Of a stretch of 64,000 nt of DNA, positions 5,492-30,423 are shown one piece after another (within the stretch, counting starts at the first letter, position 1; the number at the start of each line of letters is the position of its first letter). Position numbers and translations under genes: made by a program. The notes under the pieces are model-generated. The model was given only the letters and a program-made list of their open reading frames with translations, was not told the origin of the DNA and did not search any database. Source of the DNA: an uncultured Flavobacteriaceae bacterium (GTDB lineage Bacteria > Bacteroidota > Bacteroidia > Flavobacteriales > Flavobacteriaceae); NCBI GenBank assembly GCA_947493175.1, contig CANLQD010000002.1, positions 248,001-312,000 on the forward strand. The letters are read 5' to 3'.

Positions 5492-5664
5492 GTGTTCGAT
5501 TTTTTTAGATTGATAATAAGCCCGTGTTCCGAAATCATCGGAATCTCTTCAAAAGGTGCTAAAATGGGGTTCGAATAGTCTACGAAATTATAAATCTGTA
5601 GAAAAAGCCCGTTAAAAGCGCCCAGGGCGCTAAAGAAAAATAACAGCTGAATTTCGAAATCCAT
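5488..5664 (-). pseudogene. Remnant of the N-terminus of a membrane AraC-type regulator
   Basis: A 58-codon frame (ATG at 5664; an alternative ATG at 5685) whose first 23 or so residues, MDFEIQLLFFFSALGAF then NGLFL, look like the first membrane helix of flavobacterial AraC-family regulators that carry an N-terminal multi-helix membrane domain. The remaining 33 residues do not continue that domain, and no HTH is present. It ends in an ATGA overlap with the NTF2-like gene, so it may still be translated and couple to it. It is either a decayed regulator or a small membrane peptide; the first is preferred. Confidence 0.35.
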
Positions 5665-5685
5665 ACAGGCAAATATATAAAGCAT

Positions 5686-6055: not shown

Positions 6056-6538
6056 ATGGCAGTTTTCTACCACATTCGAAACAATACGACACCGCTGTAT
6101 CTTCTTTTTCTACTACTTTGTTTGTCAGGAAGCTGCAGAAACGATGACCTTCCCGATACCCTTTTTGAGCCTATAGGCACGCCTCTTCCCGATGATTCGG
6201 ATTCCAATAATCCAGGTTTGCTTGTAGGCACTTGGTATTTAAAGACACTTTTTGAAGAAGATGGAACGGAGAAAACACTTAGTGATTGTCATAGGAAACG
6301 AAATGCCACTTACTATGCGAATGGAACCTGTCGGCATGCAGTATTTACCCCTACGGATGATGGCTGTACACTAACCAATTCGTACACCTGCCGTTATTCT
6401 TTTGAACTTGGTATTATTACCAGCAGCTCCACTGAGTACGGAACAGTAAAGTCTATTGTAAAGTTCTTTAATGCGAACACCCTGGAAGTCTTTAATAATC
6501 TGGGAAATAAGATTGCAGTTTATCGCAGGCAATTGTAA
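6056..6538 (+). CDS. Lipocalin-like lipoprotein
   Basis: 160 residues with a lipoprotein signal (hydrophobic LYLLFLLLCLSGSC, Cys near residue 27) followed by an acidic linker. The mature domain begins LLVGTWYLKTLFEEDGTEKTL and ends VKFFNANTLEVFNNLGNKIAVYRR, the pattern of small eight-stranded lipocalin-like domains found widely in flavobacterial lipoproteins (GxW start, C-terminal xxxVYxR strand). Several Cys residues (about four in the domain) could form disulfides. The ligand is unknown. The gene is monocistronic between genes on the opposite strand. Confidence 0.7.
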   Translation: MAVFYHIRNNTTPLYLLFLLLCLSGSCRNDDLPDTLFEPIGTPLPDDSDSNNPGLLVGTWYLKTLFEEDGTEKTLSDCHRKRNATYYANGTCRHAVFTPTDDGCTLTNSYTCRYSFELGIITSSSTEYGTVKSIVKFFNANTLEVFNNLGNKIAVYRRQL

Positions 6539-6783
6539 TGTTCAAACAAACTGCTTTAAGGCCTTTCTTTGCTAAAACAACTATGTTCGGAAAGGCAAGC
6601 ATTGGGTATATAAATCCCGATTATTGGGTAAGATAGTTCCGTGGCCTCAATTTGATTTTACCAATCATCAGGGAATTTTTTAATAAGGCTCTCTGTGGAT
6701 GGTATCCAAGACGATGTAACCAAATACGAAACAATTTTTCGTTCAAGAGTAGCTTCAAGTAAGCCTGTAAAGCGTACTGTTTC

Positions 6784-7650
6784 TTAGCGTCTTGATTTCT
6801 TGTCGGCTTCGACCAATTTGTCGTCGTTCCATTTTCCTTTTGCAACGATATCCCCGTCACTACCGATGAACTGACCACTTCCACTGCGTTTGTCTTCCTT
6901 CCATTCGCCAGCATATTTCTCACCATTGGGCCAGTAGTACGTACCTTGCCCATTACGCTTATCATTTTCATAATGACCTACATAGTATTGACCATCGGCC
7001 CAATAGAAGGTACCTTCACCGTGTCGTTGGTTGTCTTTCCACTGCCCCTCATACCGGCTTCCGGTATCTAATAGCGCAATACCAAACCCATTGGCTTTTC
7101 CATGTTTTACTTGACCCACGTAGTGAATCTGGGCACCTTTTTTACTTTTAAATTCAAGGTACTCGCCAAAAGACTTTTGTTGCAATTGCCGTTGCAAACG
7201 GGATAATTTCACCTGGGTCTTCTCCAATATGAACTGAATGGAATCATATTGTTTTGTGGTAGTCGAAAAGGCTACAGGCTGTAGCGACAGACTATCGGCT
7301 TCTTTCTCAATACGCTCCTTAGGAGTTTGTTTTGCAGTCTCGACGTGCATTAGTTTTTCGGCCAGGGCAATTCGTAGGGGAATGGCCATATTGTTCTCGG
7401 CGCTGGCCTCCATAGTCTTAGTATACGACTGTACCGCATCGGTATATGAACCTGTCAATAGCATGGAGTCGATGTCCGCTAGTTGCTCGTAATATGCCAA
7501 TTGTTCTTCAACCTGCACACAACTAGCATCTTTAGAAGCCAATTGTTGGTTCAGATCAATCGTCTGATAGCGGTACCAAATAGCAACACTCGTCATAAGT
7601 GCCAGTAGAAGATAAGGGGCAAATTTTTGTACTTTCATTCGTAATAACAT
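6784..7650 (-). CDS. Membrane-anchored MORN-repeat protein
   Basis: 288 residues: one N-terminal membrane helix (about residues 10 to 25), a helical and coiled-coil stretch to about residue 175, then about five MORN repeats of 22 to 23 residues (for example YEGQWKDNQRHGEGTFYW, YVGHYENDKRNGQGTYYW, YAGEWKEDKRSGSGQF). MORN repeats form extended beta sheets used in membrane or protein binding. Third gene of an operon with the DUF2490 protein (23-base gap) and the 654-residue protein. The tail is basic (KKSRR). The function is not known. Confidence 0.8.
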   Translation of the reverse strand: MLLRMKVQKFAPYLLLALMTSVAIWYRYQTIDLNQQLASKDASCVQVEEQLAYYEQLADIDSMLLTGSYTDAVQSYTKTMEASAENNMAIPLRIALAEKLMHVETAKQTPKERIEKEADSLSLQPVAFSTTTKQYDSIQFILEKTQVKLSRLQRQLQQKSFGEYLEFKSKKGAQIHYVGQVKHGKANGFGIALLDTGSRYEGQWKDNQRHGEGTFYWADGQYYVGHYENDKRNGQGTYYWPNGEKYAGEWKEDKRSGSGQFIGSDGDIVAKGKWNDDKLVEADKKSRR

Positions 7651-7673
7651 GATTTAACATGCATATCTACGAG

Positions 7674-8510
7674 TTAATCGTTGAAATGGATTTCGGGAAG
7701 CTTATTTTTTACTTTTCTAAAATCGGGCGAGAAGTACATATGAAAGCGTAGTGTCCAAGCTTGCTTGTAAATACCGCCGTTCGAAAGTTCCTGTCCCTGC
7801 GAGTACATCAGTCCCGCTGCGAACGATAATCTTGGTGTGGCAATATAACCTAAAGTGGTAGTGATTCGCAGGTCTTCCATCGGACTGGCCACTACTGCCT
7901 TTCCACTTTGCATGATCAGCTCGGCTTCCGGTGAAATGTAGAAAGTCTTTGGTTGTAATTTATGGTTGTTCAGAGGTGTTTTCATCCGGAACATATACCG
8001 CCAACGATTCCGGAAGATATAATCGCTATTTTCTGCGAAACCTTGGGTCCATCGGTGCTCGATACGTATTCGATGGTAGATCATAGAACTTCCCAAGGGC
8101 AAAGCGAATTGGTATTGGTGCCAAATACGCCATTCGGGAACCACATTACGGTCGGGAGAAGCAGGATCGGTGTTGAAGTTGATGCGCACTACCCCACCCA
8201 AACTCGCATTGAATTTTTTGGAATAGATGTATCCGATGGCATGGCGATTGTAAATTTGCCCAATTTGACTTAAATAAGGCGTACTTTCGGTCTCTACGAA
8301 GCGAAAATGGGTTTGTGCATCCCAAAAAAGGCGTTTCGAAATACGAATGTTGCCATAGGTGTTGAACCACGTTCTGGTTACAGGATCCTTGTATTTTGAC
8401 TCTAGCGGCAACTCTTCTTTTTCTTGTTCCTGTGCCGAGATTCCGAAGGTGGTTCCTATGGTAAAAAGGACGCAGAGCCATATGGTATGAAAAGCATAGG
8501 TAGTTCTCAT
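7674..8510 (-). CDS. DUF2490-family outer-membrane-type protein
   Basis: 278 residues with a cleavable signal peptide ending ISAQ near residue 27. The mature part consists of short amphipathic beta strands with aromatic girdle residues (TWFNTYGNIRISKRLFWDAQTHFRF, then RHAIGYIYSKKFNASLGGVVRI, then RIRIEHRWTQ) and ends in a beta-strand region (AWTLRFHMYFSP), fitting the DUF2490 beta-barrel family. The gene's ATG overlaps the stop of the upstream 654-residue gene by four bases, so the two are probably translationally coupled. The role in the envelope is unknown. Confidence 0.75.
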   Translation of the reverse strand: MRTTYAFHTIWLCVLFTIGTTFGISAQEQEKEELPLESKYKDPVTRTWFNTYGNIRISKRLFWDAQTHFRFVETESTPYLSQIGQIYNRHAIGYIYSKKFNASLGGVVRINFNTDPASPDRNVVPEWRIWHQYQFALPLGSSMIYHRIRIEHRWTQGFAENSDYIFRNRWRYMFRMKTPLNNHKLQPKTFYISPEAELIMQSGKAVVASPMEDLRITTTLGYIATPRLSFAAGLMYSQGQELSNGGIYKQAWTLRFHMYFSPDFRKVKNKLPEIHFND

Positions 8511-10471
8511 TCGTGCTCAGTAGCTGGATTTTCTAGGTTGAACAATTCCAGAACCGTTTCGGGATCATCTTCCTTTCGAAGTTTTCGCTCCAATCGTTTC
8601 GTATCTTCATCACGCAGTGCAAGCATGCGCCGGTAGGTTTGCTCCATGCGTTGTTGTATATCCGCCGCTGTTTCACAGCTCAACGAAGTTTGTGTCTGAT
8701 TTAAGAAGTAAGGGACCAACACTTTTTGATAGGCGGAAGTAATACGTTTTTTAAGCTGTTCTTCCATCACAACAGCCACAAACGGGTTCCACACCCCGTC
8801 TACATAGCGTTTTTGTATCGAGTCTGATTGCTGTGGTAACGTACCCACTGCCCTGCCCAATCGATTCAACTCTTTAAAACAGCCGACCAATTCACGGGCC
8901 ATGGTTGGTTTTTCCGAAGTTTCGGGCACGGAAGCGTAGGCTGATAATTGTTTCTCGGCCAACGCGCTTACGCTTCGGAGGGCTTTTAGATGGGATTTTG
9001 GCAACTTGTTTCCAACGGAATCGATATAGCTTTGCAAACTATCGTTCAATCGAATCAACCGTTCTTCCAGTATTAATAGCTCTTGTTGGCTTTGTTGTTT
9101 TCCTAATTTTACTCCTAGTTGTCTTTCGATGACTTGAAGCCCCTGCAATGCGTATTGGGCAACCTGTGATGAGGCCTGCAAATCATTCCCCTGCCAAGTA
9201 AACTGCTCGGCATTGGGTAGTGAAAACGTACGGTCGGTAGCGCCATCTTCTAAGTAGGCTTGAAGGTCTATAGTAGTCGATGGTGTGCCTACCGGCCAGA
9301 TATCGGCCATGAGTTTGGATCGTTGTATGTAGTCCAAAACACCTAAACCTTCATATGAAAGCAAGGTATACAAGGGCTGTAGCCATTCCTCCGAAATCGT
9401 CTGTACCACCGCGTAACCATAAGCTGCTTCCTCGTCCGACAGTTTTAGCAAGTTCAATTGAGAACTGTTCAACAATATATCACTGATCGATTTTGCTTCA
9501 GAGACCTGTGAGCGAATATTTTGCAAATGTGCTTTTTCTAGGGAATCTAGCGGATAATAAGGCAGCTTTACCTTCCATTCAGGGTAAAACGCCGTGGTGC
9601 CAATTTCGGTAAAAATGGTATCCAGCTTATGATAGAAAGAGGTGTTTTGTACCAACAGCTTTGGCAACGACCCTTTTAAAAACGACAACGAATCTTTTGA
9701 AGATGCCTGAAACCTCAATGCTTGTAAATATCCCTCACCAAGCTTAACGGTCTTAAAATCGGCTTTTTCATCGTAGTTCAAGCGCCATTCCGTGATTTCC
9801 CCTTCATTCTTGGTTTCCACCCGTTCCAAGATGCCATCCTTAAAATACCAATCTTCCTCTATTTCGGTATCTCCGCCTCCATACAAGGCCCACTGGTCAT
9901 GGGCGAGGCCATTCCTAAGAAAACGGCCGACCAAGGTGCTTTGCGTATCTTCAATTTGAAAACTCCCCTTAGGAACCCCATTCTGAAAGTCTATCTTACT
10001 TTTGAAGCTTGTCCCGGTTATTTCAGAATTTTCAATTTGGTTCACTAAAATATTCCATGTACCGTTCGGTCGCCCTTCTGATACCAATCCGCTTGCTTCT
10101 TCCTGTACCCCATTTACCAAAACACGGTATTGGTAATCGACTACCTCGGAGCCATTCCCGGAAGTAAAGGATCCGAACCGCAGTTTCCAAGCACCTTCCG
10201 GGGTATTATCCTTAAAATCTCCAGAAAATAGAAAGGAAGTGTCCTCATTTTGCAGCAGGGATTGTAAGTCTGATTTTTGAATGCGAAAAGGACCATTTCG
10301 CAGCGTATCACCTTCTACAATGCGATACTGAAACACCGCTTCCCCTTCATAACCAGCAATCCGCAGCGGCCCCCGATAGGTGTTTTCTTGCGCCTGTATC
10401 ATCGAAATGCCCCCAAGAATGAGTAGCATGGTGGCACATAGACCTCTAATGATGGTTCGGAACAGTATCAT
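8507..10471 (-). CDS. Large exported protein with N-terminal MORN/toxin-antitoxin-like sheet repeats, function unknown
   Basis: 654 residues; signal peptide ending MIQAQ. The first 220 residues repeat a pattern like GDFKDNTPEGAWKLRFG, GRPNGTWNI, GVPKGSFQI, NGLAHDQWALYGG and WYFKDGILERVE, which resembles the variant MORN sheets found in many Bacteroidota exported proteins. The rest is largely alpha-helical with coiled-coil stretches (LEERLIRLNDSLQSYIDSV) and no recognised enzyme motif. First gene of a three-gene operon with the DUF2490 barrel and the membrane MORN protein, so the three may form one envelope complex; that is inference. Confidence 0.6.
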   Translation of the reverse strand: MILFRTIIRGLCATMLLILGGISMIQAQENTYRGPLRIAGYEGEAVFQYRIVEGDTLRNGPFRIQKSDLQSLLQNEDTSFLFSGDFKDNTPEGAWKLRFGSFTSGNGSEVVDYQYRVLVNGVQEEASGLVSEGRPNGTWNILVNQIENSEITGTSFKSKIDFQNGVPKGSFQIEDTQSTLVGRFLRNGLAHDQWALYGGGDTEIEEDWYFKDGILERVETKNEGEITEWRLNYDEKADFKTVKLGEGYLQALRFQASSKDSLSFLKGSLPKLLVQNTSFYHKLDTIFTEIGTTAFYPEWKVKLPYYPLDSLEKAHLQNIRSQVSEAKSISDILLNSSQLNLLKLSDEEAAYGYAVVQTISEEWLQPLYTLLSYEGLGVLDYIQRSKLMADIWPVGTPSTTIDLQAYLEDGATDRTFSLPNAEQFTWQGNDLQASSQVAQYALQGLQVIERQLGVKLGKQQSQQELLILEERLIRLNDSLQSYIDSVGNKLPKSHLKALRSVSALAEKQLSAYASVPETSEKPTMARELVGCFKELNRLGRAVGTLPQQSDSIQKRYVDGVWNPFVAVVMEEQLKKRITSAYQKVLVPYFLNQTQTSLSCETAADIQQRMEQTYRRMLALRDEDTKRLERKLRKEDDPETVLELFNLENPATEHE

Positions 10472-10718
10472 CCGGCAAAAAAAGCGATTTTATTCGATAG
10501 TTACGAGGTATAGTACGAAAAATTGAAAGCTTTGGATTTTCTGCCGCACTTTTTTAAAAGATCTTTGAAGAATTTCCTTGATTTATGGCAATTTCGAACT
10601 TAAGAATTGGTAAATACCCCTTGTTTTTGGAACAAGGGACAAAAATAGCGCCCATATGAGGGGGAGCAGGGTAAGAAGATAGGTATCTGTTCTTATGATG
10701 CAACGGCTCGGCCTAATT

Positions 10719-11576
10719 TTAGTAGGTTGCACCTACTTCTACAAAGGTGTTTTTAGAATGGTATTGTGGTAGTTCGGGAGCCACCATGCAGCAAGTAGAT
10801 CCTAAATAGAAAAGCGCAATCTCTTGTAACTTGTGCACCTTGGTGCCTACTGTTAATTTCTCAGGGAGGGCAATGGTCCCTACCGCCGGGCCTCCAACGA
10901 TAGACAAATACCACGTACGCCCCATGGTATCCACGATGTCTATATTATATCGTTCGTTTCGCAAAGCGGGCAATGAGGGGTTTTGTTTATAAATCCAAGG
11001 TCGCAGTACGACCAAATCCCCAGGAACGTGTTGAATGCGGCTTATGGTACCCGATACCGGGGCATGAATGCGGTGGTAGTTTTTATTATGCAAAAACACG
11101 TTTGAAAAAAAATAATTCTCTGGGATGGAATTTTGCGTTACCTGAAAGATGGTTTCAATATTTCGTTCGTCACCCTTAACGCTAGACACCTTGGTATCGC
11201 CCACCCGACCCGTATCACAGAGCAGACCTTCGCAGGGCCAAACGTAGTTACTCTGGTTTTGGGGAAGCTCCTTGAACTCTCGGGTAAAAAAGTCTTGAAA
11301 GGTATCGAATTCGGCTTTTCCATGAGGAGGCTTGAACTTCTGTAGGTAGTTCTTATCCGAGTAGTTGACCCTTAGATACGGACCGATTATCTTTCTGGAA
11401 TATGATTTTGTATAAAACCTCGAGTACCAAGCAGAGAAACGTTTTTGCAGCGTACTTGGTAGATTGCCCCAAAGCTGTACGGAGAGAAACTGATATACAC
11501 TGGCACGCCACTGGGGTACCTTAAATACCGTAAAATGTGCATCGGAATTGTTGGTCGGAAAAGAAACTGATTGCAT
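10719..11576 (-). CDS. Phosphatidylserine decarboxylase homologue
   Basis: 285 residues, the usual full length. The family makes phosphatidylethanolamine from phosphatidylserine using a pyruvoyl group formed by self-cleavage at LGST; here LGSTCC with the Ser at residue 260. The conserved FLHNKNYHRIHAPVSGTI block carries both His residues (168 and 171). The usual P-x-DG Asp of the self-processing Asp-His-Ser triad is replaced by Glu116 in WPCEG. The GGPAVGTIAL segment is also present. No signal peptide is evident. The gene is monocistronic and has a 10-bp inverted repeat upstream. It may be a paralogue of the housekeeping enzyme rather than psd itself, so no symbol is given. Confidence 0.82.
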   Translation of the reverse strand: MQSVSFPTNNSDAHFTVFKVPQWRASVYQFLSVQLWGNLPSTLQKRFSAWYSRFYTKSYSRKIIGPYLRVNYSDKNYLQKFKPPHGKAEFDTFQDFFTREFKELPQNQSNYVWPCEGLLCDTGRVGDTKVSSVKGDERNIETIFQVTQNSIPENYFFSNVFLHNKNYHRIHAPVSGTISRIQHVPGDLVVLRPWIYKQNPSLPALRNERYNIDIVDTMGRTWYLSIVGGPAVGTIALPEKLTVGTKVHKLQEIALFYLGSTCCMVAPELPQYHSKNTFVEVGATY

Positions 11577-11660
11577 ATCGTTCGTTTTTTTGGTTCACGA
11601 TTTTCCTGTCCGCAATCTATGGTAGTCAGGAAATCCAAAGTTGATGAATTGTTTGTGACG

Positions 11661-11694
11661 GTTCCCGATACCAATTACTAAAGATATCGGGAAC
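11661..11694. promoter_or_regulatory. 10-bp perfect inverted repeat upstream of the decarboxylase gene
   Basis: GTTCCCGATA (11661 to 11670) and TATCGGGAAC (11685 to 11694) are perfect complements with a 14-base gap, about 85 bases before the decarboxylase start codon. It could be a regulator site or an RNA hairpin in the leader. There is no T-run directly after it on the minus strand. Confidence 0.45.
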
Positions 11695-12012
11695 AACCAC
11701 TTGTTGATAGTCATTCGAAAACCTGATGAGGGCTTCTATAATACCATTTCCAACATGAAGTTACTCAATCAAAACATATTGGAAACGGTATAAAAGACTG
11801 TCCGTTTTTGATGATACACCAAAGTAAACCAGCCAACTGGGCTTTCACAAGTCAATTTTGTAAATGACCGTCTTTTTTTTGGATATGACTTTTAACAGCA
11901 TATTGATGCCGAAAATGGGGAAAATAAGGTCGTTTGGAGCAATTACAAGTCATCGAACCCCTATTTAAGGAATGATTAACAAAAAAGAGTGTGAAATTGA
12001 GTAGTTGGTAAG

Positions 12013-12052
<40 letters not shown>

Positions 12053-12055
<3 letters not shown>

Positions 12056-12075
12056 AACTTACATTATATGTTGCC
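12053..12075. repeat. Small inverted repeat GGCAAC / GTTGCC
   Basis: Six-bp arms separated by 11 bases, starting in the last unit of the heptanucleotide run and lying downstream of the LytTR regulator gene. It could be part of that operon's 3' end, but no T-tract follows. Confidence 0.3.
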
Positions 12076-12148
12076 AATTGCTACGGAGGTGTAGCAATAG
12101 AGATTGAGAAATAAGATAGATAAGTCCTTGGTTCTGTTGCTTGCCCGA

Positions 12149-12886
12149 TTACTTGCGGAGGGCTTCCAACGCTTGGGAACGATAATTACGTCCGATAGGA
12201 AGTTCCCTTCCATTTATTTCCACCATGATATTGTTGTAGGCACTGATATGGGCAAGGGAAATAATATAGGAACGATGAATGCGTATGAACCGTTTTCTTG
12301 GAAGTTTTTCTGCTAGATAGCTGATCCGTTGGGTAGTGGTCACTTCTTTTTCTGCTAAATGAATGATAACCTTATCATTTAAGCTTTCTAGATAGTGAAT
12401 ATCATTCAAATGCAACTTCATCACCTTTCGGTCCGATTTGATATAGAGGTACTCCATTTCCGAAGTCGTGGGCAACGGATTACCGGTATCTGATATGTCG
12501 GTTGGTGGTTCGGTATGTGGGCCTTGAAGATATTTATTGACTTTTGAGATGGTTTTTAGAAAACGGGTAATCGAAATGGGTTTCAAAAGATAGTCGATGG
12601 CATCGAGTTCAAAAGCCTTGATGGCAAATTCCCGATAGGCCGTGGTAAAAACGACCAGAGGCGGATTTTTAATGGATTCGATCAGCTCCAATCCGCTTAC
12701 TTTGGGCATTTTGATATCCAAGAATAACAATTGCACCTGCCCCTTTTGAATATGCTCGAACGCTTCCAAGGCGTTACTGCAACTGGCTATTACTTCCAGT
12801 TGATCGATTTGTGCGGCGTATTTGACCAACACGTCCCTTGCCAACGGCTCATCGTCTACAATAATACAATTTATTTTATGCGACAT
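12149..12886 (-). CDS. LytTR-family response regulator
   Basis: 245 residues. A receiver domain (residues 5 to 120) has acidic pair Asp11-Asp12, phosphoacceptor Asp57 in FLDIKMP and Lys102 in YLLKP. A LytTR DNA-binding domain covers about 145 to 243 (YLYIKSDRKVMKLHLNDIHYLESLNDKVIIH, RKRFIRIHRSYIISLAHI, LPIGRNYR). Such regulators bind direct-repeat sites as dimers. Its first codons overlap the end of the kinase gene by 11 bases, so the two form one operon and a cognate pair. Targets cannot be read from the window. Confidence 0.92.
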   Translation of the reverse strand: MSHKINCIIVDDEPLARDVLVKYAAQIDQLEVIASCSNALEAFEHIQKGQVQLLFLDIKMPKVSGLELIESIKNPPLVVFTTAYREFAIKAFELDAIDYLLKPISITRFLKTISKVNKYLQGPHTEPPTDISDTGNPLPTTSEMEYLYIKSDRKVMKLHLNDIHYLESLNDKVIIHLAEKEVTTTQRISYLAEKLPRKRFIRIHRSYIISLAHISAYNNIMVEINGRELPIGRNYRSQALEALRK

Positions 12887-13964
12887 TTTCTTGTTGTATT
12901 ACATCGGGAATCGCACTTAGGTCAAGGGTCAGTTTTACCAAAAAACTATCTTCTTCCTCCAAAATCTTAAGTTCATGCCTTTCAGGAAAAAAAAGGTCTA
13001 AGCGTCTTTTTACATTGATAAGGCCAATATTCTTATCCGTGTCCAGTCCTTCTTTTGCAGGAATAGGGCTTTTACTATTTTCGACCATGAACACAAGCTT
13101 GTTTTTAACCAGTTCTAGGTTGATATTGATCCAAGAGTCATTAATTTCATTGTCTACCCCATGTTTAAAGGCATTTTCGACAAAGGGCAATAGCAGCAAA
13201 GACGGAATCAACGTATCTGTGTCATCGATAGATTCGGAAACGTTGATACTCAAGCCATCCTCATAGCGAATACGTTCCAAGGCGACTAAATTCATTAACT
13301 GCTCCCACTCCCGACCAATGGGAATGAAACGTTCATTACACTCATAAAGCATATAATCCAAAAATTTGGATAGCCCTAGCACCACTTCTGGTGTTTTTTT
13401 TGACTGTGATAGGGACAAGGAATAGATACTGTTCAAGGTATTGAACAGAAAATGGGGATGGATCTGCGCTTTTAGAAACTTAAGTTCCGTAGCTACTTTT
13501 TCTTTTTCAAGCTGCTTGTTGATTTTATCATTTTTATAATAGAACAATTGTAACTTAATGGCCATGGCCACAAAAACCGGGGTGTATACGGCGATTACCG
13601 AGTTGAACACCTTTGGGAGATATAAGATGGGAGTTTTCCAGTATTGCTTTTCAGGGTAGAACCAACGGTACAAATAGGTCCATGTCATATAACGGTCTAT
13701 CAACCCCATGGCAAATGCCAAAAGAATGGATAAGAACACGTATTGAAGTGTCTTTTTGGGATACAGGAACCGGGGCATTAGGTAGTAAAGGGTAATATAA
13801 GTGGGAATCATCTTCCAAGGCAACAAAAACAGCAGTTGCTGGAATTCTTCCCAATATTTCTCGTCATAGCTCCCCCACATCAAGGTATATACGGCCAGAT
13901 AAGCAAGCCAAAAGAGGATATGGTAGGGTATGCGACGTTTGCTATTTAGAATCTTGTCGATCAT
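12876..13964 (-). CDS. LytS-type sensor histidine kinase (His_kinase family)
   Basis: 362 residues. Four membrane helices lie in the first about 140 residues, with no large extracellular domain. A short helix leads into ELKFLKAQIHPHFLFNTLNSI, the His_kinase box with phosphoacceptor His171, followed by a HATPase-like domain (LLLPFVENAFKHG N-box, GLDTDKNIGLINVKRRLDLFF). It overlaps and precedes the LytTR regulator gene, so it is the partner kinase. Confidence 0.92.
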   Translation of the reverse strand: MIDKILNSKRRIPYHILFWLAYLAVYTLMWGSYDEKYWEEFQQLLFLLPWKMIPTYITLYYLMPRFLYPKKTLQYVFLSILLAFAMGLIDRYMTWTYLYRWFYPEKQYWKTPILYLPKVFNSVIAVYTPVFVAMAIKLQLFYYKNDKINKQLEKEKVATELKFLKAQIHPHFLFNTLNSIYSLSLSQSKKTPEVVLGLSKFLDYMLYECNERFIPIGREWEQLMNLVALERIRYEDGLSINVSESIDDTDTLIPSLLLLPFVENAFKHGVDNEINDSWININLELVKNKLVFMVENSKSPIPAKEGLDTDKNIGLINVKRRLDLFFPERHELKILEEEDSFLVKLTLDLSAIPDVIQQENVA

Positions 13965-16856: not shown

Positions 16857-17651
16857 CTATTGTTCTTTGACAAATACCATACAGTGTTGCCATGGTAGGG
16901 TATCAATGTTTTCCTCTAATTTCATCCCTGCTGCCTTCATCTCTTTCACTGCCTGTTTTTCGGTCATCTTATGCACTTTCTTGATGGGTACCGAACCATC
17001 TTCACCGCGATACTCGATCAAATAGATTTTACCATCTTGGCGTAATGCTTTTTTGATCGAGGCAATCATCTCGACCGGGTAGTCGAATTCATGATATACA
17101 TCGACCATTAAAACCTTATCCACCGAATTATCCGGAAGATTAACGCTTTTCCCACTTCCCTTAATAATCGTTACATTTTTGCTAGGACCTGTTTTTTTCT
17201 TTTTGTGAAGAGCAGCCAACATTTCATCTTGAATGTCTACAGCGTATACCAGCCCTTTGTTGGCAATGGGAGCCATTTTAAACACATGATACCCTGAACC
17301 TGCGCCGATATCCGCTATGCTGTCGTTGGCTTGAATGTTCATCGCATTCAAGAGATTGGTCGTGTTTTCTTCAGCCTCCCGTTCGGGGCGTTCTAGCCAT
17401 GCCATTCCTTGAAAACCCATCACATGAGCGATTTCTCGACCCATATACCATTTCCCAATACCATTGGGATCTCCTTTTCTATAGGTGTATGGTTCCTTTG
17501 GGGTCTTTTCTTGACTTATACCTTGAAAACCGTTAAGCAACAAGAACAATAGAAACGGAAGGCTGACTTTTCTTTGAACATGTTTGGAAAGGACAGATGT
17601 ATCCGGCCAAGTGGTACTATCGATTTTTTGTTTCATCAACCTATTTTTCAT
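16857..17651 (-). CDS. Predicted exported class I SAM-dependent methyltransferase
   Basis: 264 residues. A hydrophobic signal-like helix (VSLPFLLFLLLNGFQGIS) sits near residues 30 to 47, after a polar stretch of 29 residues, and later ATG codons would shorten this stretch. The body is a Rossmann methyltransferase: motif I ADIGAGSGYHVFKMA, motif II region VYAVDIQDEML, then NSVDKVLMVDVYHEF, and DGKIYLIEYRG. Known homologues are annotated as methyltransferases with signal peptides, but SAM is cytoplasmic, so the exported form is puzzling. First gene of the operon with the TetR regulator. Confidence 0.75.
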   Translation of the reverse strand: MKNRLMKQKIDSTTWPDTSVLSKHVQRKVSLPFLLFLLLNGFQGISQEKTPKEPYTYRKGDPNGIGKWYMGREIAHVMGFQGMAWLERPEREAEENTTNLLNAMNIQANDSIADIGAGSGYHVFKMAPIANKGLVYAVDIQDEMLAALHKKKKTGPSKNVTIIKGSGKSVNLPDNSVDKVLMVDVYHEFDYPVEMIASIKKALRQDGKIYLIEYRGEDGSVPIKKVHKMTEKQAVKEMKAAGMKLEENIDTLPWQHCMVFVKEQ

Positions 17652-19778: not shown

Positions 19779-20177
19779 TTACAAAAAGCGTTGTAGGTAC
19801 TTTTTAAAATAGATGGCACTATCTGTAATGCGCTGCACGGAATTTTGGGCAAAATTCCCGCCCTGCTCCAGATAATAATACTCAAGCCCATTGGTAGGGA
19901 GCTTCGATAACAGGTTTACATAGTCGATAGACCCATTGTCCAGCTCCGTGTAATCGCGGGTACGTTTGTTCATATCCTTAATATGCCATATTACATAGCG
20001 TTCTGGTTGATCGGCCATCCATTCTTCCGGACTCTTTTTAGACGTATGCATCACCCAATAGAGGTCCATTTGTTGTTTTACCAAAGCAACGTCTGTTTCT
20101 TTTAGAATGATGTCGTACCCTATTTTTCTATCGTGTTCGGTAAATTCGAAGTCATGATTGTGGTACGAAAGATCCAT
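19779..20177 (-). pseudogene. Sugar phosphate isomerase/epimerase, 5' half deleted
   Basis: 133 residues from ATG at 20177. It opens directly at DLSYHNHDFEF, a motif from the middle of xylose-isomerase-like TIM barrels, and continues with QQMDLYWVMH, YVIWHIKDMN and YYYLEQGG. Family members are usually about 280 to 300 residues, so roughly the first 150 residues, with the first metal ligand, are absent. The break coincides with the right copy of the 50-base repeat (20161 to 20209), so a recombination event is the likely cause. Confidence 0.75.
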
Positions 20178-20209
20178 TTTTAGCAAATTGAAAAAGTCTA
20201 AATGAGTTC
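20161..20209 (+). repeat. 50-base direct repeat, right copy
   Basis: It matches 15608 to 15657, including a 32-base identical core at 20178 to 20209. The left 17 bases are the first codons of the isomerase fragment read in reverse, so the repeat contains coding sequence from that gene. Confidence 0.8.
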
Positions 20210-20425: not shown

Positions 20426-23400
20426 TTAATTTTCCATCAACTTTTGAATGGCTTCTTTGACTTTGTTCAGCTGTTGCCGTATGACCTTATCCTTGATATG
20501 ATACAATAAAAAATCGATTTGCAAGAGTTCGATTCGAATGTATCGCGGACTGTAGAGCAATTCGAAAATATGATTGAACTTCTTGATAATATCGATTTCG
20601 GGATTCGGACTAAAATCGTTTTGTAAAAGCATTAGGCCGTATTTTACCTCTGCCATACCAATGAGCACGGAGACGTCTAAGTTTGCTTGGTCAAACTCAT
20701 CGAGTTCCTTATGAAAATTAGTTAGATAAGTGGGCAGATCAGATACCTCACTGAACGCGGAACATTGCTGTAGTCTGGTGAGCACATCTTCGTTCTTGGG
20801 GTCGTTCAATTGTAAAATGTAGGCAACGAAAATCATATTGGTCATTGCATCCAAACAGTGACCATCGTAAGGATCGATCGATGCCAGATATCCTTTTTCA
20901 TAGAAGCTGTAGGCCTTTTTAAGGTACGATACCCTTTCCCGTTTTGTGGTTGTTTGCATCGAGGCGAACTTATAGGCATTGGCCACGATGTTCAATCGAC
21001 TGGGGTTTTTACCGACCATGGTCAGAAATTCAATTTCCTTAAGGTCATCTTTTAAAGTGGCCTTTTTCAGATTGTAGGTTTTAATGACGCAGTATTGTTC
21101 CAATGCTTCTATTGAAAAGTTGCCATTCGCATATTTGAACAATGCTACAAATTTCTCCAGTGCTATCTCCGGTTTTCCCAATTCATCGTAGATAAGAGCT
21201 TCTTTTTCAAGGACCACCGCGTCGAGGAGATTGGCCTGTTCTGCCTTATCCATATACTTATCGAGCTTTTTAAGGGTGGTCTTAGTATCGTGTTTTCGAT
21301 CCCGAATGGCGATTAAGAGGTTATCCATATCGGTATGCACTTGAGAAGCAATCACATACTCTAGCTCTTCCCTTTTGCTTTTTTGTGTACTCTTTAATTT
21401 GTAGAACTGGTTCCCGTAACATTGATAGGCGCCCCAGGTGTTGGTTCCCGGATGTCCCTGATAACATGCCAACCGTGCTTTTTGTACCGAGGTTCCGAAG
21501 TTGTACCCTTCGAACATTTTTTTATAGAAGGTTTCGGCAAAGGTCTTTGCAGCGGCATCATCGACCGCCCAACCTGAGATGATAATGGCTTTCACGCCCA
21601 TTTCAATAAGTTCTGTTCCCACATTGGCCGCTAACCGGTAGCGTTGCTGACTGTACCGGTCGTCTTGGGCATTCATGGTTCCGGAGTAACAACAGTTAAT
21701 GAATACGAATTCGGGAGTATATCCGATTTGTTTTATTTTGCTAGGATCGATGCAAATACCATCACCAATTGCGATACCGACATTTTGATTTTCCGGTTCA
21801 TATACACCATGGCCGGCGAAATGCATGATCTTGTATTCGCGGTCGTATAGTTGGATCATAATGGCATCGGCCGTTTCCCCGATCAGGGAAGCTGTTTTAA
21901 ATCCGTTTGCTTGAAACTGCCCGGTTACCCATTCGGCCTCCGCCGCTGCGGCCGGCAACTGTGGTAGTTCATCCTGTCGATAATCCGGGTCTCCTATAAC
22001 CAAAACCCCATTGTTGCTGAGCGACACCTGTTCAAAACTTTTACCATTGGAGGTTACCAGTTGTCGAATAAAGGTAGAACTTACCGAAATAGGCGTTTCA
22101 TCGGTATTGGAGTCATGTAACAGCTCCCAAGGAATTTCGGCAGCTTTGGTATCTAACTTCAGCACCATATTACCTTGGTTTCTGAAAACATCCTTGAAGT
22201 TATTGGGCACCAACATTTCGAACAAGGCTTTTGACAGACGACGGTCCCAAACGGACGTTTTGGAATGTATTTCCAAAAGGCGATCTACGGTGCGATTTCC
22301 GATACCTATAATCTCTTGCTCCACACGGGCCAGGGCACGGGTAGAATAGTAGCGATACCCGCAGACGCCCTGTTGCTTTTCATCCAAAACACTCTCGATC
22401 TGTAGAGTGTACCACCAGTTGTAGCCGTTGTCTGAGAATAATCGCTTCTTTTTGGCCCCTACTCTTCGGATGACCCCCTTATCCAATCTAATGGAAATAC
22501 GTTTATCCTGGTCGCGCATGCGGCTTAAACTGAAATAAGCCTGACTCGCAACCGATTCGTAGTAGTTGAGTACCTCTATTTTTTTAATCACTTTTAGGCC
22601 CTCCCCAGTTTCGTTAATGTAGCGATTGGCAGCCGAGACACCCAGTAAGATTCCCTTGAGTGAATCCTCTATAGGTAGTTTTCCATAACCGATACCTATT
22701 AAGATAAAAGAGATACCATCTGCATATTGTTTGGCCTTGGGGAGTGTGTAGTTGTCCCGCATGAACATAGCGTATTTTAGAACGGCCAATTCAACGGTTT
22801 TCGATAGTAGAAACGAGGTCAATGTATCGGTACTTCCCAAACCACAGACAATGGCCCCTTTGGGCTGGGTGTTCAGGTTAAAAAATACCTCGCTTTCTCC
22901 TATTTTGCCAGGATAATACCCAATGTTAAGCCGTTGGGTAAGCCGATTGTTCAAATAACCATCAAGGGCTTTTTCGGCACTTAGGATGAGGTCCATAAAA
23001 AAGTGGCCCACCATCACTGGGTATGAGGCGACCTTTAAATCGCCGTTAATGACGGTCACATGAATTTCCTCGGCCTTGGGAACGGCTGGTTTTCGGGTAT
23101 CGAACAGTGCCGTGACGACAGCGTTGGAATCTGTCAGAGGCTCTACATTGGAATGGATTTCCGTAATCGCGCTCGGCCCTCGGGAAATAGGCGGTTGGGT
23201 ACTTAGGCGATTCGTTTTTCCACGGGCAAGTATATCGTGGATTCCTTCAAAAATATACCCTTCGTTGGCCAAATCACCATGGGTGGTATGGGTATAGTAC
23301 AGATTGGGTCCGCCAACCAATTGCTGGGGAACTCCGGTTTGCCACGTAACACTCCCATCTCCTTTAGAAGTACCTAGATAAACGAGCTTCTTATACGCTG

Positions 23401-25744
23401 ATAGAAAGCGGTCTTTAAACCGATAATTGAATACCGTTTCGTCTGCCTTTCCACAGATGTAATACACATTCTTAAAGAATTCCTGGTCATCCTTAATACT
23501 AGACAAAAACTTTAGGGTATTAGTCCTATAGTTCTCAAAATGAGAAAGTAATTCTTTGTGGTTTGTAATATCAGGTAGGTGTTTTAGATTGGATTTTCCA
23601 TTTAATTCCTTCCAAAAATCCGATGTCCAGAAGGCTCTTTTCCCGCTCTGTTCAATGGGTAATAATTCAAACACACCAGGATAGTCCCAAAAAACTTTCA
23701 ACAGGTCGGCCCGGTCATTTTCAAAATCAATAGCAGCCAATTGTTTCACCCTGCCACTATGGCCGGTGAGAACCTCCATGATCAAATAGGAACCTAACCA
23801 CGGGGTTCCCAACATTACGAACTTGTTCTTCTTTCTTTGACTGAATTGGGCCCAGGTATCCGAATATAGTCGCATACATTCCCTGACCACCAGTCCACCC
23901 ATCGAATGTGCCACGATATGAATGGTATGATCATGGCTTTTTAGTTGTTTTTCTAATTCTTTTCTTAGTTGGGTAGCCGCTTCTTCCAATGATTTACGCC
24001 AATCAAAGGCCAATGTTAATACATCATAGTCCTTTAACAGATAGTGGCAAAATTTATCATAAAACTTTTTGACTACACCTGAAGCTTTTATTTTGGCGTT
24101 ATCCGTTTTAAGATGGTCAACAATGGCACCTTTGTTCAAGGCGCGCATCTGTACCCAAAAATCTTCTGCTCCTGTGCCTAGTGTTGATCCCATAATACCC
24201 GGAATGACAATGACCAAATCGCGTGTCGTCTTTTCTGGGCTATAGTTAACGCCGTCCAAAGAGAATAGGTCGAGCAACACCCCACGTTCTCCTGCAGTAA
24301 GCACATGTTTTTCAAAGTACTTGGCGGGGCCCTTCTTATCGGTCAACGCTTCAAAAATTGCCTCGCAGGAGTTTTGGTTTTTAAAGTAGTTAAAATGGTT
24401 GGTGTTCTTATCACGGGAAAGATAGGCATAACTACCATTGACCCTTGGTACCCCGTGTAGCATACGACGGGTATCTATAACCAGATCATTGGCCTCTCGA
24501 TAAAAGAGGTTGGCCAGTATTACTTTGAGGGAGTCGAAGGTAATACCGCCCACTTCCGAATCTCCTGAAATAGCATATAGATCGCTTACGACTGCGGTAT
24601 CCGCGGCGTTCATCATTTTTTGAAACAACGACTCCGGCATCATGCTGTTAAGACCCGCGAGTATCTCAGGATCTTCTTTTTGGGAAATCATTTCCATTAA
24701 GAACGATTTTACGATACCGTACAAGGGATTTCGAACACCAAAGGCAAATGAAATGGCATTTAGCAGTAGGTTGAAGAAGTGGTCTATACGTCTGGAAAGT
24801 ATGGTTGTGCCGCTGGCAGGTGCCGCCACGCGAACTACTTTGCGAACGTAGATTTGTTTCTTGATGAGTTCATTGTTGATCTGCAGCATTAATTTATGGG
24901 AAACCGGATCCCCTTTTTCAACAATGACCAGTTCGTTTTTGCTAAAACCGACTGCCTGACTTTTTGTATTGCCATAATCACATTTGGCCAAAATGTCGGC
25001 AACCAATCCGCCTCGGGAGTGACTTACAATATCGAGCACTATTTCGTTAGGGCAAGCTTTTAAGAAGTCAAGAGCATTTTTTAGGGGACTCACCGATAGC
25101 GTATGGTGCTCCAAAGCGAGCATGTTTTTTCCGTATTGTTGTACGATGCGTTCCCAATGGCTGCCTTCCCTAAGGTCTCCAAAGGCATCCAATGTGGTAG
25201 AAAGCGTTCCATGTATGAACAGCAAATAGGGTTTTGACTGCTCATTATTCTTTACCTTTCCTTTGTTGAAATTGGCATCCAGTTGATAGAGTCCCGGACT
25301 TGGCTGTACCTTTTTATCATAGGCCGTTCCTAATTGCTTCATACCCACTTGGGCGATATCTTTCGTTCCGAAAATCCCAAACACCTTAATTAATGCCCTT
25401 TTAATCGTACCTCGGGTGCTTTCCGCGGTAGCAATACGTGCTTCAAATAAGTAGGTCTCATCGATGATCGACCTTTTCTGCAGTGTATTCTGATGATATA
25501 ATTCTTGTACGGCTGCTGGGTGACCGATCCATTCTGTATTATCGGTAAACTGTATGGCGAGAAGGTCCTCGTCTTCAAAAGCTACCTGAATAGCTTTGTT
25601 ATTCGCTCTTGATGCGGAGACTCGGATACATTTTTTAAGCTCGAACTGTGGAGGTACGGGTGATGAAAAGAACGTTGCTTGGTCTAAATCGATTTCTTTC
25701 CCGTAAAATTTGGCTTTTTGGGTCATGGTTTGGCTATTTTGCAC
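20426..25744 (-). CDS. Giant protein with two alpha/beta-hydrolase domains and a CHAT (caspase-like) domain
   Basis: 1772 residues. No signal peptide is visible, so it is probably cytoplasmic. An N-terminal region leads into hydrolase domain 1 (YLLFIHGTLSTT, nucleophile Ser243 in SHSRGG). Hydrolase domain 2 resembles lecithin:cholesterol acyltransferase-type lipases (LVIVIPGIMGSTLG, nucleophile Ser614 in AHSMGG, then FVMLGTPWLGS). A linker region with GDLKVASYPVMVGHFF follows from about residue 885. The CHAT protease domain has His1312 in HFAGHG and Cys1352 in NCCYSG. The C-terminal about 290 residues are helical, perhaps repeat-like. CHAT proteases act in bacterial self-killing and gasdermin-type defence. 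The gene stands alone, with no defence partner beside it. Confidence 0.85.
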   Translation of the reverse strand: MQNSQTMTQKAKFYGKEIDLDQATFFSSPVPPQFELKKCIRVSASRANNKAIQVAFEDEDLLAIQFTDNTEWIGHPAAVQELYHQNTLQKRSIIDETYLFEARIATAESTRGTIKRALIKVFGIFGTKDIAQVGMKQLGTAYDKKVQPSPGLYQLDANFNKGKVKNNEQSKPYLLFIHGTLSTTLDAFGDLREGSHWERIVQQYGKNMLALEHHTLSVSPLKNALDFLKACPNEIVLDIVSHSRGGLVADILAKCDYGNTKSQAVGFSKNELVIVEKGDPVSHKLMLQINNELIKKQIYVRKVVRVAAPASGTTILSRRIDHFFNLLLNAISFAFGVRNPLYGIVKSFLMEMISQKEDPEILAGLNSMMPESLFQKMMNAADTAVVSDLYAISGDSEVGGITFDSLKVILANLFYREANDLVIDTRRMLHGVPRVNGSYAYLSRDKNTNHFNYFKNQNSCEAIFEALTDKKGPAKYFEKHVLTAGERGVLLDLFSLDGVNYSPEKTTRDLVIVIPGIMGSTLGTGAEDFWVQMRALNKGAIVDHLKTDNAKIKASGVVKKFYDKFCHYLLKDYDVLTLAFDWRKSLEEAATQLRKELEKQLKSHDHTIHIVAHSMGGLVVRECMRLYSDTWAQFSQRKKNKFVMLGTPWLGSYLIMEVLTGHSGRVKQLAAIDFENDRADLLKVFWDYPGVFELLPIEQSGKRAFWTSDFWKELNGKSNLKHLPDITNHKELLSHFENYRTNTLKFLSSIKDDQEFFKNVYYICGKADETVFNYRFKDRFLSAYKKLVYLGTSKGDGSVTWQTGVPQQLVGGPNLYYTHTTHGDLANEGYIFEGIHDILARGKTNRLSTQPPISRGPSAITEIHSNVEPLTDSNAVVTALFDTRKPAVPKAEEIHVTVINGDLKVASYPVMVGHFFMDLILSAEKALDGYLNNRLTQRLNIGYYPGKIGESEVFFNLNTQPKGAIVCGLGSTDTLTSFLLSKTVELAVLKYAMFMRDNYTLPKAKQYADGISFILIGIGYGKLPIEDSLKGILLGVSAANRYINETGEGLKVIKKIEVLNYYESVASQAYFSLSRMRDQDKRISIRLDKGVIRRVGAKKKRLFSDNGYNWWYTLQIESVLDEKQQGVCGYRYYSTRALARVEQEIIGIGNRTVDRLLEIHSKTSVWDRRLSKALFEMLVPNNFKDVFRNQGNMVLKLDTKAAEIPWELLHDSNTDETPISVSSTFIRQLVTSNGKSFEQVSLSNNGVLVIGDPDYRQDELPQLPAAAAEAEWVTGQFQANGFKTASLIGETADAIMIQLYDREYKIMHFAGHGVYEPENQNVGIAIGDGICIDPSKIKQIGYTPEFVFINCCYSGTMNAQDDRYSQQRYRLAANVGTELIEMGVKAIIISGWAVDDAAAKTFAETFYKKMFEGYNFGTSVQKARLACYQGHPGTNTWGAYQCYGNQFYKLKSTQKSKREELEYVIASQVHTDMDNLLIAIRDRKHDTKTTLKKLDKYMDKAEQANLLDAVVLEKEALIYDELGKPEIALEKFVALFKYANGNFSIEALEQYCVIKTYNLKKATLKDDLKEIEFLTMVGKNPSRLNIVANAYKFASMQTTTKRERVSYLKKAYSFYEKGYLASIDPYDGHCLDAMTNMIFVAYILQLNDPKNEDVLTRLQQCSAFSEVSDLPTYLTNFHKELDEFDQANLDVSVLIGMAEVKYGLMLLQNDFSPNPEIDIIKKFNHIFELLYSPRYIRIELLQIDFLLYHIKDKVIRQQLNKVKEAIQKLMEN

Positions 25745-28019: not shown

Positions 28020-28619
28020 ATGCAAGCATCTGTTCACTACCATTTTAAACTGTACAAACCTTTTGGGATGTTGAGCCAATTAGGCTCCAATGATGCCCGT
28101 GAACAAAGAACCAAGCGCTTTTTGACCGAATTGCACGATTTTCCTTCTGGGATTATGCCCGTGGGCAGGCTCGATGAAAAATCGGAAGGACTTTTACTCA
28201 TGACTACTGATGGTGGGCTGAGCGATTTTATCAACCGTTCCGGAATCGAAAAGGAATACTATGCACAGCTCGATGGCGAGATAACAAAGGAGGCGTTAGC
28301 CCGATTACAATTAGGAGTGGATATCGGTATTGGTGGACGAAAGTACCGTACCAAATCTTGCAAAGCAGGTGCATTACCTTTCACTCCTACCCTTCCAGAA
28401 CCCGATCCCAGTTTGCGAATTGGCCGTCACCGTCCTAGCTCATGGGTTCGTATTGTTTTAACGGAAGGCAAATTTCGTCAGGTACGTAAAATGACTGCGG
28501 CTGTGGGCTACCCTACCCTGCGATTAATACGCGTTCGAATAGGCATTTTTCATTTAGGCGATATGTACCCGGGCATGGTGCATCCTATTTCATTGGAAGG
28601 TATTCGGTCTATGACTTAA
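28020..28619 (+). CDS. 23S rRNA pseudouridine synthase, RluE/RsuA type
   Basis: 199 residues from the ATG at 28020; an upstream ATG at 27993 adds nine poor residues and does not match the family start. Motifs: FKLYKPFGMLSQ, GRLDEKSEGLLLMTTDG (catalytic Asp in GRLD), EGKFRQVRKMTAAVG and LRLIRVRIG. There is no S4 domain, as in RluE, which modifies U2457 of 23S rRNA in E. coli. The 3' end overlaps the convergent cyclase gene by 11 bases. Confidence 0.85.
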   Translation: MQASVHYHFKLYKPFGMLSQLGSNDAREQRTKRFLTELHDFPSGIMPVGRLDEKSEGLLLMTTDGGLSDFINRSGIEKEYYAQLDGEITKEALARLQLGVDIGIGGRKYRTKSCKAGALPFTPTLPEPDPSLRIGRHRPSSWVRIVLTEGKFRQVRKMTAAVGYPTLRLIRVRIGIFHLGDMYPGMVHPISLEGIRSMT

Positions 28620-29679
28620 AGGTTGTTTTTGAACTGTTTTCTTGCACGGCATGAACCAGTACATCCTGTGCTTTTCCTTTTAATGGAATATGGCCCAAAG
28701 CATCATAAGAGAAATGATCAGCTTCTAACTGATTTTTTAATTCTTCGGAAATCAATAGTTCCGCGCCAAGTTCGTTGCATTTCCCCTGAATCCGTGCGGC
28801 CGTATTGATAGTATCTCCGTGGTATGCAATTTCCCTCTTATACTTTCCTACTTCCGTCACCGTTACGATACCGGAATGCATGCCCGCCTTGAAAAAGGGA
28901 AGGCGTTGGTATTTTTCCTGATAATAGGACTCTTTTTTAAGTAGTTGTCCCTTGAAATTATAGTAGGCATTTAAACAGTTCTGGTTTCGAATACCATTTT
29001 TTAATTTCCAGGTAAGAATTACTTCATCACCTACATATTGATAAATTTCGGCCTCATTTTCAACCACTACCCCCAAATCATTAAAGCAGTCCTGTATCAT
29101 CATACTATATCGAATATGCCCCAGTTGCTCCGCGTGTTGGGTAGAGGATTGTAAATCTAGAAACATGAAAATACGTTCCTCTTCACGTGGCGTGTAAAAC
29201 TTTCCCATTAGAAATTTCCACAGATTGTTTTCTCCGAGAAACAGGTTCACCTGTCGAAGCGTGAACATGAAGGTGTCAACTCCTACGATATAAGAATAAA
29301 TGGCAAAACTACCGGGTTCAAAAATAAAGGGAATCAAGTTGATTTCAATCGCAAATAGTACTCTTACCATGGCATAAGCAACCAGAATAATAGTGAAAAC
29401 AAAAAGAACGGCAATCGACAACCGAAGCAGCAATAGTTTTTGAATCGATACCCTTCTATAAAGTCGTTCCTCGGTCCATATCTGTGCATACCCTGAAATC
29501 ACTCCAAAGAGTACCCCAAATACCATTGATATATACATGGTTACGGGAAATTCGAATTGTACAGCACCTTGTTCGATCGTTCCTGCACCCCGCACGACGG
29601 ATAAAATAAGAAAGGCAATCGTCCAACCCACGACATAGTCGCGAACAATTCCCCATCGGCGTCTGTTCTTAAATTTCAT
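28609..29679 (-). CDS. Membrane class III adenylate/guanylate cyclase
   Basis: 356 residues. About four membrane helices fill the first 135 residues. The class III cyclase domain runs from about 170 to 345, with metal-binding Asp175 (MFLDLQSST) and Asp218 (VGDEV), and the transition-state pair Asn-Arg in INTAARI near residue 301. The purine-selecting positions are not obvious, so cAMP or cGMP is unclear. A hairpin touches the start codon. The cyclase sits next to the ABC ATPase gene (75 bases), but is a separate transcription unit by function. Confidence 0.85.
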   Translation of the reverse strand: MKFKNRRRWGIVRDYVVGWTIAFLILSVVRGAGTIEQGAVQFEFPVTMYISMVFGVLFGVISGYAQIWTEERLYRRVSIQKLLLLRLSIAVLFVFTIILVAYAMVRVLFAIEINLIPFIFEPGSFAIYSYIVGVDTFMFTLRQVNLFLGENNLWKFLMGKFYTPREEERIFMFLDLQSSTQHAEQLGHIRYSMMIQDCFNDLGVVVENEAEIYQYVGDEVILTWKLKNGIRNQNCLNAYYNFKGQLLKKESYYQEKYQRLPFFKAGMHSGIVTVTEVGKYKREIAYHGDTINTAARIQGKCNELGAELLISEELKNQLEADHFSYDALGHIPLKGKAQDVLVHAVQENSSKTTFKS

Positions 29680-29754: not shown

Positions 29755-30423
29755 TTATCCTTCAACCTTGCGCCCATCGAGTAGATGAATGATTCTGGAT
29801 CCGTATTCCGCATTTTTTTCGGAATGTGTCACTTGAATGATAGTGACCCCATCTTGGTTCAACTTTTTGAAGAGTTCCATGATTTCCTCTCCCTGTTTGG
29901 AGTTCAGGTTGCCCGTGGGTTCGTCCGCTAGAATGAGTTTTGGCTTGGTAATCAATGCCCTGGCGACGCCCACCAATTGTTGTTGCCCACCACTCAGTTG
30001 TGTTGGAAATAAATCTTTTTTTCCTACGATACTGAAACGGTCTAACATATCGGCCACGAGTGCTTTTCGTTCCGAACCTTTGATCTTTTTATAGAGCAAG
30101 GGCATTTCCAGGTTTTCATAAACCGTTAGTTCGTCAATAAGGTGGTACGCCTGAAAAACAAAGCCGATATACTGTTTATACAGTTCAGCCCGGTGTTTTT
30201 CTTTGAGGGAATGTACCGATTCGTCCATAAAATGGTATTCGCCTTCGTCAAAGCCATCGAGCATTCCCAGTACATTTAGTAGCGTAGATTTTCCCGACCC
30301 GGATGGACCCATCACGGAAATGAATTCCCCTTCTTCGACTTGGAGATTAATATCTTTCAACAGAAAGACTCGTTTTCCACCTTGTTGTACCCATTTAAAA
30401 ATGTTGTTTAGTTGCAGTAGCAT
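29755..30423 (-). CDS. ABC transporter ATP-binding protein, MacB/LolD type (sole ATPase of the array)
   Basis: 222 residues, a normal single nucleotide-binding domain. Walker A GPSGSGKST at 39 to 47, Q-loop GFVFQAYHLIDELTVYENL near residue 90, signature LSGGQQQ near 143, Walker B LILADEPTG near 163, and H-loop THSEK near 198. The family (MacB, LolD, FtsE-like) drives FtsX-type permeases that transmit mechanical force across the membrane. The signature is followed by LVGVARAL, where relatives usually have RVAIARAL. It is the last gene after at least 14 permease genes on the same strand, and no other ATPase is visible. The 84-base gap to the first permease shows no clear promoter. Confidence 0.93.
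   Translation of the reverse strand: MLLQLNNIFKWVQQGGKRVFLLKDINLQVEEGEFISVMGPSGSGKSTLLNVLGMLDGFDEGEYHFMDESVHSLKEKHRAELYKQYIGFVFQAYHLIDELTVYENLEMPLLYKKIKGSERKALVADMLDRFSIVGKKDLFPTQLSGGQQQLVGVARALITKPKLILADEPTGNLNSKQGEEIMELFKKLNQDGVTIIQVTHSEKNAEYGSRIIHLLDGRKVEG

Follow-up and report, generated by a model that had tools for sequence, protein, structure and literature searches.

The stretch of DNA analysed here (64,000 nucleotides, referred to below as the window) comes from a marine flavobacterium, and it carries an open reading frame (20426..25744, minus strand; 1772 codons when counted from a GTG) encoding one giant protein with five folded parts in a single chain. The likelier start of this reading frame is the ATG at codon 7 (position 25726), giving a protein of 1766 aa, because homologues align from residues 5-9; the full-length homologues show 53-66% identity and the divergent ones 31-36%, and all of them begin near these residues. 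The order of the domains is a DUF7379 hydrolase, an LCAT-fold hydrolase, a macro-like domain, a CHAT protease and a TPR-S-like C-terminus, and the identical order is found in Bacteroidota and on plasmids of Pseudomonadota, down to about 30% identity and with the catalytic residues retained. The N-terminal region (residues 7-165; 25250..25726, minus) has no Pfam match and a model pLDDT of 50-75; one relative (L082) has a fused pYEATS domain at the corresponding terminus (Pfam 3.9e-5, which is under the Pfam cut-off). Neither a signal peptide nor a membrane segment was found in the protein (maximum 19-residue hydropathy 1.47; Kyte-Doolittle maxima 1.3-1.8). The protein was modelled with AlphaFold in two pieces (residues 8-868 at a mean pLDDT of 79.5, and residues 890-1772 at pLDDT 76.2), which were compared with the PDB, and in Foldseek searches against this database no single entry showed the same combination of domains, each match row spanning one domain. 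No model in PADLOC or PHROGs matched the protein, and nothing useful on DUF7379, on TPR-S together with CHAT, or on pYEATS was found in the literature searched.

The first-pass annotation of this reading frame, as two hydrolases and a CHAT protease fused in one chain, agrees with both the Pfam matches and the AlphaFold models, in which the two hydrolase folds and the CHAT fold are all borne out. The four catalytic residues that it named, viz. Ser243, Ser614, His1312 and Cys1352, are invariant across 21 aligned sequences, and the loss of such residues in homologues, which it had raised as a possibility, is not seen in either of the two phyla; that two possible lipases are fused to a CHAT protease is correct. 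However, its list of parts was incomplete, as a macro/LAP-N-like domain (residues 890-1085) was missed, and the C-terminus, which it described as helical, was not recognised as a TPR-S-like array.

The first alpha/beta-hydrolase domain (residues 168-472; 24329..25243, minus) is matched by the Pfam family DUF7379 (PF24096) at 2.5e-36, with 125.9 bits against a cut-off of 33, and when its AlphaFold model is compared with the PDB, the structural matches are bacterial lipases and hydrolases (Z of about 15-16). Its triad (Ser243-Asp420-His450) is invariant in 21 aligned sequences, and in a set of 28 sequences that includes Pseudomonadota, Ser243 and Asp420 are retained in all 24 sequences possessing the DUF7379 domain. 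The second alpha/beta-hydrolase domain (residues 507-847; 23204..24226, minus) is of the LCAT/PLA2G15 fold and is matched by LCAT (PF02450) at 2.4e-16 (60.4 bits, cut-off 21). Its triad, Ser614-Asp796-His822, is likewise invariant in the 21 aligned sequences and is retained in 27 of the 27 sequences of the larger set where it is present, inclusive of the Pseudomonadota at about 30% identity. The best structural match of the modelled domain in the PDB is lysosomal phospholipase A2 (LPLA2; Z 26.7 over 298 residues, 3.0 A), and further matches are LCAT (Z 24) and Tle4, a lipase of the T6SS (Z 22.4). The fold and the Ser-Asp-His triad are common to all of these enzymes and hydrolase 2; however, unlike them, hydrolase 2 is one domain within a cytosolic protease fusion. 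As this predicted phospholipase-like domain resembles phospholipases best, the damaging of membranes by it is plausible, judging from the modelled fold.

The next domain (residues 890-1085; 22490..23077, minus) is macro-like or, equally, similar to the N-terminal domain of leucine aminopeptidase (LAP), as the structural score for the LAP N-domain (Z 15.2) is tied with that for the macrodomain of macroH2A1.1 (Z 14.8). Its match to Peptidase_M17_N (PF02789) is under the cut-off in the window's protein (0.056) and above it in two relatives (L071, 6e-7; L081, 3e-7), and these matches, together with a profile match to LAP at 3e-4, support the assignment. When the ADP-ribose motif of macro domains was sought, GDL was found to be frequent and the ligand residues were not strictly conserved. 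The CHAT caspase-like protease domain (residues 1169-1445; 21410..22240, minus) matches PF12770 at 3.1e-26, above the Pfam cut-off, and SAVED-CHAT (8tl0) at Z 18.3. Its residues His1312, Cys1352 and Asp1396 are present in 28 of 28 sequences, including those from Pseudomonadota at about 30% identity, and since the adjoining Cys1351 is replaced by Ala in three sequences, Cys1352 is the catalytic cysteine; Asp1396 lies within a W-x-V-x-D segment, which we take to be reminiscent of the S1 segment of separase. The C-terminal array (residues 1465-1772; 20429..21352, minus) matches structurally, in the AlphaFold model, the central regulatory (TPR) region of human ASK1 (Z 19.1 over 268 residues), and TPR-S (PF20308) matches it at 0.0024, with 18.9 bits against a cut-off of 27.6. 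Because helical repeats readily reach Z of about 13 in structure comparison, the assignment as an ASK1/TPR-S-like array rests mainly on the relative L082, in which TPR-S is matched at 8.8e-11 (42.7 bits).

Each of the linkers flanking hydrolase 2 contains a conserved arginine. Arg487 (24284..24286, minus; 21 of 24 sequences), between the two hydrolases, is the sole position of linker 1 (residues 472-507) with at least 85% conservation, and Arg855 (23180..23182, minus; 25 of 26 sequences, from two phyla) lies between hydrolase 2 and the macro-like domain, with Gly842, Thr844 and Pro852 also conserved near it. The residue following each arginine is mostly Gly or Ser, and both are situated where the confidence of the models falls (pLDDT of about 52-73). 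Relatives of CHAT in clan CD, such as separase and gingipain R, cleave after arginine. The conservation of an arginine in each linker therefore suggests, at the level of sequence, that Arg487 and Arg855 are candidate CHAT cleavage sites, and that the protease could excise hydrolase 2 from its own chain and so free the lipase. The two arginines may instead have a structural role.

The distribution of the gene is sporadic. Full-length homologues are present in 10 of the 199 sampled genomes of the family, and homologues are found in 6 of 395 genomes of the class and 6 of 296 of the phylum, one match in each of these two samples (G806 and G149, respectively) being partial. Within the genus, 3 of 10 genomes carry the gene, the two other copies showing 54-66% identity, and in the genome where the position was checked (G835) it lies at a different place; as the gene is found in 3 of 10 genomes and is non-syntenic, it is interpreted as accessory, and it appears to move. 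Copies in Ensifer, Azotobacter and Paracoccus are on plasmids. A phage or prophage origin was considered and rejected, as no relative was found in phages, nor in IMG/VR when the C-terminal alignment was used.

In the window, no defence gene lies beside the gene and its neighbours are metabolic. The downstream M19 dipeptidase was rejected as a partner, since a related genome (G828) has the dipeptidase without the gene and in G835 the two are 184 kb apart. An ORF of 135 aa starting with TTG (19779-20186, minus), with no Pfam match, resembles the final part of a TIM barrel of the sugar isomerase type and is probably a truncated gene remnant. Elsewhere in the window there is a protein with a class III adenylate/guanylate cyclase domain (28609-29679, minus; weak Pycsar cyclase match, 9.7e-8), one ABC ATPase (29755-30423) and, adjoining the latter, an unusually long tandem array of 14 consecutive same-strand genes for MacB/FtsX-type permeases (30508-63977, minus; Pfam matches on two), which are mutually related at 27-49% identity, all 182 pairs being detected.

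The earlier description of the gene as solitary, without adjacent defence genes, is thus correct for the window; however, it does not extend to many of the homologues. Of the 21 Bacteroidota loci, inclusive of the window, 14 have immunity-type, lysis or T6SS genes near the homologue and 7, the window among them, do not, and due to this pattern and to the sporadic, non-syntenic occurrence of the gene, a consistent housekeeping context, which had been envisaged as the contrary outcome, is not observed. A protein of about 410 aa with PG_binding_1, endolysin-type PHROG matches and no signal peptide is encoded 8-15 bp downstream of the gene in five loci (L004, L005, L006, L023 and L029) and also adjoins it in L032, and an Amidase_3 gene adjoins the homologue in L008. 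In all, peptidoglycan enzymes are adjacent in 7 Bacteroidota loci and one Rhizobium locus, of which the homologous PG_binding pairs do not count as mutually independent, and the wall enzymes of the three different kinds do; the PG_binding partner was not found in the window's own genome or on the plasmids. In L007 and L027, a KAP NTPase is encoded 20 bp downstream of the gene, and in L029 the homologue has DRT2 and a type IIG restriction enzyme near it. In L009 there is a metallophosphatase and, two genes downstream of the homologue, a T4 gp19-type tail-tube gene (16945-17403); the ORFs listed near this gene include no further tail gene. In L028, an ECF sigma-like gene (by inspection) lies upstream and the homologue carries a C-terminal extension of about 400 aa (12603-13868), in which a trypsin-like GDSGA motif is seen by inspection and Pfam assigns no family.

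TIR genes are found near three homologues (ThsB-like in L025, CHASE2-TIR in L032, and directly upstream in L082). Of 14 carrier genomes, with 37 TIR places among them, 3 have a TIR within 10 kb of the gene, against 0.18 expected (P 5e-4, simulation), the TIR-adjacent copies being divergent relatives only (about 33% identity) and the close orthologues having no TIR link. The TIR gene of L082 is followed by the pYEATS-containing homologue and then by a gene for a patatin-like phospholipase (1999-13038).

Among the Pseudomonadota, the gene in Ensifer follows SIR2, nSTAND1 and periplasmic binding protein genes, in this order, in a tightly packed operon, the homologue in Azotobacter is beside a type I restriction-modification system, and the copy in Paracoccus yeei adjoins genes for an unassigned protein and a solute-binding protein. 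Related proteins with fewer or rearranged modules are also found. LCAT-macro-CHAT proteins without DUF7379 occur in L071, where SIR2 adjoins, and in L081, and in Rhizobium leguminosarum a macro-CHAT protein is flanked by TIR-nSTAND1-WD40 genes, after which a GH108/PG_binding_3 enzyme is encoded. A DUF7379-CHAT arrangement is seen in L075 and on the megaplasmid of Ruegeria pomeroyi (L083:9464-16265), where the next genes encode a PtuA-like ATPase that contains SIR2 and an HNH protein of the PtuB type (Septu PtuA/PtuB matches of 6e-47 and 1e-66); this locus has the appearance of a variant of Septu to which a caspase-hydrolase has been added. A fusion of a C14 caspase with DUF7379 is present in L076 and L077. 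In the latter (6709-12803), its gene overlaps a downstream TPR-CHAT gene, so that a single operon encodes a hydrolase along with two proteases of the caspase fold. The two kinds of fusion indicate that the DUF7379 hydrolase associates with two separate caspase-fold families, in accord with the caspase-type VMAP systems, in which a neighbouring alpha/beta-hydrolase gene is always present (PMC7159879).

Based on the occurrence of its relatives in bacterial immunity loci, the protein is probably a self-contained effector of cell suicide or defence. We consider it somewhat more probable than otherwise that it is a cytosolic, single-chain effector of bacterial immunity or programmed death, which would be gated by its protease and act by lysing membranes. 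In such an effector, the C-terminal TPR array, perhaps together with the macro domain, would receive a danger signal, possibly, in some lineages, an NAD+-derived nucleotide from a TIR protein; TPR-S is reportedly predicted, in work of Burroughs and Aravind from 2020, to read signals of this kind. Reception of the signal would activate the CHAT protease, which would either cut after Arg487 and Arg855 around hydrolase 2 or change shape, and the phospholipase-like domain or domains, once unlocked, would degrade the membrane of the cell itself. In some lineages, the adjoining endolysin-like peptidoglycan enzyme, which lacks a signal peptide, could next attack the wall. The specific version, viz. 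a one-protein immune circuit in which the sensor-activated protease cuts its own chain at these two arginines and frees a membrane-destroying phospholipase, joined in some lineages by the wall enzyme, is put forward tentatively, as less probable. The known bacterial caspase-like systems act in trans on gasdermins, nucleases or protein substrates. If the circuit is correct, protease and lipase effector would be combined in cis with a sensor fold shared with animal ASK1 in a compact suicide device, in which a bacterial caspase would activate a lipase of its own chain, and protease-activated effectors would be extended from nucleases and pores to lipases. The idea is directly accessible to point mutants, which could be placed at the conserved arginines of the linkers and at each of the three catalytic sites.

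In another account, the target of the protease is a different one. The CHAT domain could act in trans on a partner, such as the peptidoglycan enzyme, the ATPase or another neighbour, with the hydrolases switched allosterically and not by cleavage, as many loci encode a partner 8-20 bp downstream, which is not the same in every lineage, and the Craspase and Canu proteases work in trans (PMC9729208, PMC12799240). However, no partner is evident in many loci, among them the window, whose genome lacks the PG_binding partner, and the conserved arginines flank hydrolase 2 within the same chain; we therefore regard action in trans as doubtful. It is quite improbable that the protein is a regulated enzyme of lipid or envelope maintenance with no role in defence. 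The metabolic neighbours in the window, the seven loci without defence genes and the copy in Paracoccus yeei, which adjoins genes for sugar catabolism, would suit such an enzyme, but a sporadic and mobile distribution, with plasmid copies and synteny lost within the genus, would not, and neither would the enrichment near TIR genes or the recurrence of a caspase-hydrolase fusion next to Septu.

A cargo of contractile injection systems, i.e. a lipase effector fired into other cells on a T6SS or eCIS tube, is suggested by some of the loci. TssD-TssC-TssD is present at L090; in G835, from the same genus as the window, the gene directly follows these three; the tube gene of L009, the resemblance of hydrolase 2 to Tle4 and the adjoining peptidoglycan enzymes without signal peptides are in line with this. 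However, the T6SS-iii sheath protein TssC is not enriched in carriers (6 of 19, versus 8 of 33 non-carrier relatives; Fisher P 0.75), the T6SS of the window's genome is 168 kb from the gene, and the Pseudomonadota relatives are in SIR2, STAND and restriction contexts. As 13 of the 19 carriers are without this sheath, delivery as a T6SS cargo is rejected as the general role of the protein, and the cargo explanation as a whole is improbable, although single lineages may use the protein in this manner.

The double-hydrolase/CHAT protein is taken to be a variant of the known caspase/hydrolase conflict systems. With the threshold-activated immune systems of TPR-S, pYEATS and TIR, reportedly described by Burroughs and Aravind in 2020, it shares the TPR-S-like C-terminus and the ASK1-like TPR fold, and in L082 the fused pYEATS and a neighbouring TIR gene are shared as well; unlike in those systems, TPR-S is here part of a chain that also contains CHAT, the macro-like domain and the two hydrolases, and there is no TIR gene near the one in the window. 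Thoeris II has the macro-domain ThsA and Thoeris IV is caspase-like, and a macro-like fold, a caspase-like protease and, in some relatives, TIR neighbours are found here also; however, the TIR pairing of Thoeris was not seen in the window region, no TIR gene being beside this copy. A paper on a TIR-activated caspase is cited in PMC12799240. With SAVED-CHAT and the TPR-CHAT protease of Craspase, the protein shares the CHAT fold and the coupling of a sensor to it; it differs from them in that no SAVED domain was found in it by Pfam, no Cas7-11 or Csx30 is among the annotated neighbours in the window, and the effector hydrolases are in cis. In the VMAP ternary systems (Kaur et al. 2020, PMC7159879), a caspase-superfamily protease always occurs with an alpha/beta-hydrolase, as it does here, whereas none of the genes annotated around the one in the window is MoxR, vWA or VMAP, and its protease and two hydrolases are fused in one chain. 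Canu, in which a caspase activates a proenzyme effector in phage defence, is likewise a TPR-containing system coupling a caspase-type protease to an effector enzyme (PMC12799240); however, the effector of Canu is a separate nuclease, whereas the one described here is a lipase-like hydrolase within the same chain.
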